Notes under the pieces: generated by a model
Databases searched by the model: none
What the model was told of the DNA's origin: nothing
What the model saw: the letters and a program-made list of their open reading frames with translations, nothing else
Position numbers and translations under genes: made by a program
Shown here: one piece after another, positions 54,276 through 57,290 of the stretch
Numbering within the stretch: the first letter of the stretch is position 1
How the letters are laid out: each line of letters begins with the position of its first letter
Source: Arcobacter sp. LA11
GTDB taxonomy: Bacteria > Campylobacterota > Campylobacteria > Campylobacterales > Arcobacteraceae
Reading direction: 5' to 3'
Assembly (NCBI RefSeq): GCF_001895145.1
Contig: NZ_BDIR01000006.1
Coordinates: 62,001 to 126,000, forward strand
Length of the DNA stretch: 64,000 nt

Positions 54276-54281
54276 TATAAT
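54276..54281 (+). promoter_or_regulatory. -10 element of atpE
   Basis: TATAAT preceded by TTGATG; transcription would start near 54288-54290, right at the base of the folded leader. Confidence 0.5.
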
Positions 54282-54287
54282 TCTTGC

Positions 54288-54403
54288 CGATATAAGGTGA
54301 CAAGTAGGGAAATATTTGCATTTATGTAAGTATTGCTACAGTTTTCTGTAGTTACGCTATCCGAACGGACTTTATACAAAAAATATATTATAAGGAATCT
54401 AGA
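54288..54403 (+). ncRNA. Structured leader RNA of atpE (riboswitch candidate)
   Basis: A G-rich block in an AT-rich genome. By eye: closing stem TATAAGGT (54291-54298) with ACTTTATA (54369-54376, one G-U pair); hairpin AATATTTGCA-TTTA-TGTAAGTATT (54311-54334, two G-U pairs); hairpin CTACAG-TTTT-CTGTAG (54336-54351). Unpaired GACAAGTAGGG and TTACGCTATCCGAACGG lie between them, where ligand sites usually are. Followed by AAGGA and the atpE ATG. A three-way junction with conserved-looking joints, directly after a promoter, suggests a regulatory element. Confidence 0.5.
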
Positions 54404-54715
54404 ATGAAAAAAATCGTTCTTTTAATGCTAGCTATTGCTGGTGCTGCTTTCGCTGCTGATGGTGCAGTTGCAAATGAAACTTTAAAAGCTTACTCTGTAG
54501 TTGCTGCAGGTATCGGACTTGGTCTTGCTGCACTTGGTGGTGCTATTGGTATGGGTAACACTGCTGCTGCGACAATCGCTGGTACTGCTAGAAACCCAGG
54601 TTTAGGTGGAAAATTAATGACAACTATGTTCATTGCTTTAGCGATGATCGAAGCACAAGTTATTTATGCACTTGTTGTTGCTATGATTGCATTATATGCA
54701 AACCCATTCCTATAA
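54404..54715 (+). CDS. atpE: ATP synthase F0 subunit c
   Basis: 103 residues: an N-terminal signal-like segment (MKKIVLLMLAIAGAAFA) followed by two helices with the Gly motif GIGLGLAALGGAIGMG and polar loop ARNPG; the ion-carrying Glu is in MIEAQVIYALV. The usual Na+-type residues around the Glu (Ser/Thr next to it) are absent, so proton use is likelier. Codons are richer in G and C than neighbours, fitting a highly expressed gene. Only F0 gene in the window. Confidence 0.93.
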   Translation: MKKIVLLMLAIAGAAFAADGAVANETLKAYSVVAAGIGLGLAALGGAIGMGNTAAATIAGTARNPGLGGKLMTTMFIALAMIEAQVIYALVVAMIALYANPFL

Positions 54716-54750
54716 GATCCTAGTCTAAACTACAGATTTTATAAATCTAA

Positions 54751-54785
54751 AAAAGGTCAAGAGTTTTTCTCTTGGCCTTTTTTTT
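54751..54785 (+). terminator. Strong terminator of atpE
   Basis: AAAAGGTCAAGAG with CTCTTGGCCTTTT (one G-U pair), 5-base loop, then a T run. Confidence 0.85.
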
Positions 54786-57206: not shown

Positions 57207-57290
57207 GCAGCTGTGGTGGAACGGTAGACACGCGGGCTTGAGGGGCTCGTGCTTAACGGCGTGAGGGTTCAAATCCCTCCAGCTGCACCA
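57207..57290 (+). tRNA. tRNA-Leu (anticodon GAG)
   Basis: Acceptor stem GCAGCTG / CAGCTGC, D-arm with GGTGGAACGGTAGACAC, anticodon stem CGGGC / GCTCG around loop TTGAGGG (anticodon GAG at 57240-57242), long variable region, T-arm with GGTTCAAATCC, and CCA encoded at 57288-57290. 84 bases including CCA. Confidence 0.93.

Follow-up and report, generated by a model that had tools for sequence, protein, structure and literature searches.

In the window, by which we mean the whole stretch of 64,000 nucleotides of Arcobacter sp. LA11 DNA that was analysed, the gene atpE encodes subunit c of an F-type ATP synthase, recognised by its matches to c subunits of the PDB (E down to 9.6e-16), and it is preceded by a leader that can be folded into a branched structure. 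It had been predicted from the DNA letters that a closing stem, two hairpins, one of them with two G-U pairs, and G-rich unpaired joints lie between a TATAAT and the atpE ribosome site, and all of these parts were present. The features of the locus, among which the promoter hexamer, the G-rich joint and the Shine-Dalgarno motif were assigned by sequence, are as follows:

54276–54281, + strand: -10 hexamer TATAAT of the atpE promoter
54289–54380, + strand: structured leader element as a whole, extended form; matched by R1, the compact-core model, with 39.7 bits, and in its own genome by R2, the extended model built with the window sequence included, with 100.5 bits (E 1.5e-24)
54291–54298, + strand: closing stem P1, 5' arm, pairing with 54369–54376 with compensatory changes
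54303–54306, + strand: AGUA, first strand of a putative bulged-G (loop E) module
54307–54309, + strand: G-rich joint
54307–54308, + strand: 5' strand (GG) of P2, pairing with CC at 54361–54362
54312–54333, + strand: P3 hairpin (54312–54320/54325–54333), an optional module with the conserved tip GCA-UUUA-UGU and covariation
54335–54352, + strand: P4 hairpin (54335–54341/54346–54352), an optional module with G-U pairs at its base and covariation
54353–54360, + strand: conserved joint UACGCUAU (counterpart in the compact form, UACGCAAG), with UUACGC columns invariant in 21 extended leaders
54361–54365, + strand: CC (3' strand of P2) followed by GAA, which would face AGUA in the putative loop E module; conserved among relatives
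54369–54376, + strand: closing stem P1, 3' arm, from the fold and covariation
54392–54396, + strand: Shine-Dalgarno motif AAGGA of atpE
54404–54715 including the stop codon, + strand: atpE, with its ATG at 54404 (103 amino acids)
54749–54783, + strand: intrinsic terminator 3' of atpE, from a terminator scan of the window

A promoter of its own and a terminator after the gene suggest that atpE is transcribed as a single-gene mRNA. The three-way junction of the original prediction holds in part: in the window both hairpins branch from a loop that a short helix closes, but P3 and P4 are optional and many relatives consist of P1 and the core alone.

When folded as a single sequence, the window leader was only mildly unusual, moderately exceeding chance (z -1.85; equalled or beaten by 10 of 200 shuffles), and the element is accepted as real on the comparison across relatives. 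A DNA-similarity search of 60 related genomes matched 58 of them and yielded 57 leaders, one match (G052) at a contig end being left out. GUA and GUAGG(G/A)...CGAA were found in 57/57 of these leaders and CCGAA in 56, with ACGAA in the other one (L004). The leaders follow one plan, in which P1 is succeeded by an AGUA-GG ... CC-GAA core and by a tip that varies by lineage and is compact (GAUACGCAAG), short, or made of two extra hairpins as in the window; 36 of the 57 were compact or short and 21 extended. Inside P1 the compact form reads AAGUAGGGAUACGCAAGCCGAAC, the extended form has its two hairpins inserted between GGGA and UACGC, and in short forms the loop, with its UACGC, is replaced (for example GGGGACAGAUCC). 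Compact and extended leaders occur within one genus (G000–G015 in genus g1, genus g13, and G041/G106 in genus g25), and they differ in whether P3 and P4 stand precisely at the junction of GGGA and UACGC, as if the module had been lost, gained or exchanged cleanly more than once.

Covariation was studied in three alignments, of 35 compact leaders (A1), of 21 extended leaders (A2) and of 101 compact leaders from named records (A3), the last freed of L095 and of identical or edge-cut copies. Paired cells amounted to 92.1, 94.5 and 95.0% in A1, A2 and A3, respectively, and covariation scores were 0.376, 0.534 and 0.564, compared to 0.154, 0.187 and 0.212 after shuffling (0/500 shuffles in each case), with slid controls of at most 0.109 for A2 and 0.141 for A3. 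Compensatory changes among relatives and conservation of the leader had been named beforehand as checks on the prediction; the core was conserved in all 57 leaders, and such changes were found in P1 (6 of 7 pairs in A1, 6 of 7 in A2 and 7 of 7 in A3), P3 and P4. In A2, P3 (9 pairs) was 97.4% paired with two-sided change in 5 pairs, and P4 (7 pairs) was 99.3% paired, again with two-sided change in 5. RNAalifold on A2 agreed with P3 and P4 and did not draw P1. The count of 7 two-sided pairs in A3 was reached in 171 of 500 shuffles, so that this one measure is uninformative. As A3 was fetched with the core pattern, its core is invariant by selection, and P1 was not selected. The sequence of P1 is free to vary while its pairing is kept, with 112 distinct helices among the 200 unique leaders introduced below and a mean of 6.34 out of 7 pairs versus 4.83 when arms were swapped between leaders. 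P1 cells included 51 G-U/U-G versus 8 A-C/C-A combinations, an excess which places the RNA on the coding strand. It is near certain that the atpE leader is a real structured RNA element, and covariation and conservation across relatives strongly support the proposal that a structured cis-acting RNA separates the promoter from the ribosome site of atpE.

The following counts refer to 200 unique leaders (of 229) obtained with a strict core rule, from 233 loci with atpE. Before counting, L095, L129, L159, L236 and L238 were removed as having no atpE by tblastn (in L238 a core and an atpE-like start were seen by eye), as were L168, with its core at a contig edge, L225 and L226, with no core, and L230, with a mis-set start and a core visible by eye. 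A looser extraction, with the core mis-set in a few leaders, lies behind the G-U and A-C counts given above and, below, the earlier promoter tally with its shuffle control and the count of ACACGC variants.

An A precedes GUA in 198 of the 200 leaders and P1 and P2 flank AGUA/GAA, GUA and CGAA themselves being demanded by the extraction. P2 was GC/GC in 196 leaders, GC/AU by compensatory change in 3 and broken in 1 (L004). This compensatory change, from GG/CC to GA/UC, occurs in 4 genomes (3 unique leaders) of a single Helicobacteraceae-like genus, presumably H. pylori-like judging by a protein start. AGUA facing GAA beside GG/CC agrees with the bulged-G (loop E, sarcin-ricin) consensus, and the AGUA-GG/CC-GAA core may fold as such a module. 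The likeness lies in an AGUA opposite GAA that is stacked on a G-C helix; unlike the atpE leader, the bulged-G module is a three-dimensional module and no family of gene regulation, and the atpE core is likened to it by sequence alone. A different core fold, a GUA-GGGA-UAC hairpin, was rejected, since the ACACGC variants (18 of 228 leaders) disrupt it and show no compensating change. When unique leaders were paired at random, the 11-nt core was 99.1% identical, versus 47.2% at wobble positions in codons 1–20 of atpE, the former value being inflated because the pattern that brought in many of the leaders already requires most of the core; the 57/57 set is less biased.

A search with R1 matched 196 of 298 Campylobacterota genomes, with at most one match per genome, and atpE was found in 293 of the 298. 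In all 100 genomes for which both positions were listed (of the 196 matched), the match lay on the atpE strand, directly 5' of the gene and 12–106 nt upstream of it. Among 17 sampled genomes with atpE and without an R1 match, 15 had, on inspection by eye, a core that was divergent or of the extended type, and two (L225 and L226) had none. These two, from the H. pylori-like genus g47, keep atpE without the element and are natural negative controls. The exact pattern AGTAGGGAYACGCWAKCCGAA was found in at least 119 stretches, 80 of these with titles, among about 85,000 named species genomes. Of 145 pattern and R1 matches examined among the matches listed, 142 lay 28–66 nt 5' of atpE, two ran into contig ends and one was L095. 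The latter, labelled Bacteroidetes, has neither P1 nor atpE and was taken as a chance match; the other titles shown among the matches listed were Campylobacterota or the unspecific 'Proteobacteria' (L130). Campylobacter jejuni carries the element (L156). R2 matched 94 of 101 Arcobacteraceae genomes, 48 of them with extended and 46 with compact leaders by match length (hand count). In the genome of the window the compact core pattern had no further match within 3 mismatches, a pattern that misses the extended form of the window too. Among the matches listed, the leader forms a phylum-specific cis-acting RNA family of atpE.

A second regulated gene was not found with R1 in the 298 genomes, among the pattern matches listed or in the R2 scan. 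The only genome with two R2 matches, G356, was considered as such a case and rejected, the second match being a duplicate with an integrase-like gene by the atpE copy, read as duplication of an attachment site. The two copies (L235 and L236) lie about 14 kb apart on contig C19, the second away from atpE, and the gene adjoining the copy that keeps atpE resembles a tyrosine recombinase by eye; it seems that an integrative element uses the atpE leader as attachment site in G356.

With regard to the position in the mRNA, a TATAAT-like hexamer was located 16–23 nt 5' of AGUA in 181 of the 200 unique leaders, and an earlier tally gave 169 of 199 observed versus 24 of 199 expected from shuffled upstream sequence. 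From this placement the mRNA should begin at the foot of P1, which in the window would be at about 54287–54289. The ribosome site follows P1 across a short AU-rich stretch, and the distance from the 3' end of P1 to the ATG was 14–31 nt in 145 of 200 unique leaders and up to 55 nt in the others. In long-spacer leaders (L045, L210, L215, L219, L097, L099, L198 and others) a second small hairpin, AGUC..GACU, lies between core and ribosome site and is followed by A-rich sequence and then CCC. Since GGG of the loop could pair with CCC, or AGAG with CUCU, these leaders of a Sulfurovum-like lineage may form a pseudoknot that covaries.

We propose, with moderate confidence, that the element is a cis-acting leader that binds a protein and/or protects the 5' end, and thereby sets the output of atpE. 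The atpE mRNA would begin with the stem, its transcription starting close to or on the first base of P1; a trans-acting factor would dock on the putative loop E core, the likeliest candidates being an RNA-binding protein and the ribosome or decay machinery; and with the 5' end buried in P1, stability and/or translation of the mRNA could be tuned. About 8–17 copies of the c subunit are needed per ATP synthase, and such tuning would matter because of this high copy number and because atpE has its own promoter and terminator. The association with one gene and the combination of a stem at the 5' end, a core that is small and invariant, and a tip that can be exchanged would fit a site for a trans-acting factor combined with 5'-end protection; such a core and tip also appear to suit recognition by a protein better than they suit a large pocket for a ligand. 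Counting against this reading are a P2 of just 2 bp with compensatory change in one genus, a variable distance between P1 and ATG, and the presence of atpE without the element in L225 and L226.

An orphan riboswitch, in which the core and the UACGC joint would bind a small molecule or ion reporting on energy state, protons or metal and alter translation or decay of atpE, is possible, though we hold it to be unlikely. Conservation and covariation give the 5' leader a conserved, aptamer-like structure with invariant unpaired bases in a covarying frame directly 5' of the ribosome site, and a ligand could be bound by the UACGCWA that compact and extended leaders conserve. Optional peripheral hairpins are common to many riboswitches, and they are optional here as well. 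However, UACGC is substituted in short forms, a single gene is associated throughout the phylum, and an expression platform was not recognised when ribosome-site masking was examined in the leaders and terminators in the window. Complementarity between core loop and ribosome-site stretch did not exceed chance (mean z 0.07; 3.5% below -2; n = 199), and the core had no effect on predicted pairing of the ribosome site (0.451 versus 0.453, p 0.85), so that neither comparison supports anti-Shine-Dalgarno pairing or sequestration of the ribosome site by the core; as the folding program has no loop E model, the latter test leaves room for a switch that needs tertiary contacts. A terminator scan of the leader region was negative, the only terminators found in the window lying after atpE, and a run of five T between P1 and start codon in 55 of 200 leaders is unsurprising in AT-rich DNA. 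Somewhat more doubtful still is the bolder version, a new riboswitch class confined to Campylobacterota, including C. jejuni and relatives of Helicobacter, that would sense energy or proton-motive state through a loop E-based pocket and set the output of the c-ring.

Binding of CsrA to the GGGA of the core and to the GGA of the Shine-Dalgarno motif, as on the flaA mRNA of C. jejuni, would name the partner of the leader, and we judge it improbable. Of the 200 unique leaders, 197 have GGA in the core (179 have ANGGA) and 191 have GGA close to the ribosome site, and GGA motifs are bound by C. jejuni CsrA in 324 of 328 enriched sequences (PMC4894983). Like the atpE leader, the flaA leader described there is a short structured 5' leader of a campylobacterotal mRNA that carries GGA both within the folded part and close to the ribosome site, its structure being backed by compensatory changes. 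Unlike it, the atpE core is far more conserved, phylum-wide and with invariant bases beyond GGA; the conserved CC-GAA, AGUA and P1 would be unneeded for CsrA and are left unexplained. Some leaders, such as L049, L216 and L229, have no GGA in the core, GGA is partly paired in the proposed fold, a GUA-GGGA-UAC hairpin for its display is broken in the ACACGC variants described above, and atpE is unnamed in the main text of PMC4894983. CsrA is the sole named candidate whose putative sites are suitably placed, but GGA is not universal among the leaders.

Slightly less probable again would be a plain 5'-terminal hairpin that stabilises the mRNA against 5'-end-dependent decay and has no specific partner. 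P1 starts at the predicted first base of the mRNA and retains its pairing while its sequence varies, as would be expected for such a hairpin, but the near-invariant core and joint are left unexplained.

Sensing of Na+, along the lines of the ion sensing that the original prediction gave as a first guess, is highly improbable, whether by a Na+-I (DUF1646) riboswitch or by a nhaA-I-related Na+-II riboswitch. The sole above-threshold Rfam match in the window is a tRNA gene at 57207–57287 (+). No riboswitch model reached threshold in the leader; at the gathering threshold and up to E 10 only chance-level matches and no DUF1646 were obtained, and neither nhaA-I nor nhaA-II was among the results, the coverage of these motifs in Rfam being uncertain. 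The window c subunit best matched chloroplast and cyanobacterial-type c chains. Gln32 and Ser66 are Na+-ligand positions of the Na+-type c subunit, and in an alignment to a Na+-type piece (itself finding 1yce, E 6.8e-31) the window protein has Met for Gln32 and Ala for Ser66; both Na+-ligand side chains that were checked are therefore absent, and control of a Na+-linked gene was not found. EAQVIY occurs at the ion site in 231 of 233 atpE loci, the other two alignments stopping before the site. The Na+-I riboswitch is similar in that it, too, is a structured leader and in some bacteria lies upstream of ATP synthase genes (PMC9337991), and the atpE leader differs in that it matches no model and accompanies one gene, with an H+-type c subunit, in one phylum. 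A DNA element, such as a downstream promoter part or a regulator site, would suit the position just 3' of the promoter but is practically precluded by the two-sided compensatory changes and the bias for G-U over A-C on one strand.

To return to a leader that binds a trans-acting factor or protects the 5' end of atpE mRNA, other precedents are partial. In E. coli, atpE has an upstream translational enhancer that is unstructured and lies inside the operon. Both are cis elements 5' of atpE that would serve the high demand for subunit c, whereas the leader of Campylobacterota is structured and has its own promoter. The orphan structured leaders of PMC2864571 likewise combine conserved structure with association to a single gene, but by term search atpE and ATP synthase are absent from the text of that study. 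Literature searches returned no report of an atpE leader motif in Campylobacterota, and by term search the main texts of PMC3656092, PMC11955535 and, as stated, PMC4894983 do not name atpE. In a start-site study of C. jejuni, TPP is given as the only metabolite riboswitch among 5' leaders (PMC3847290). As far as these searches go, the RNA family of the atpE leader is apparently undescribed.

A near-invariant RNA before one essential energy gene would amount to a new RNA family, and a phylum to which C. jejuni and Helicobacter belong would offer it a ready test bed. It raises the question of how, and by what means, enough subunit c is made from a separate atpE transcript. The chaperone Hfq is absent in C. 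jejuni (PMC3847290), and in bacteria without it the leader would give a defined handle on post-transcriptional control.
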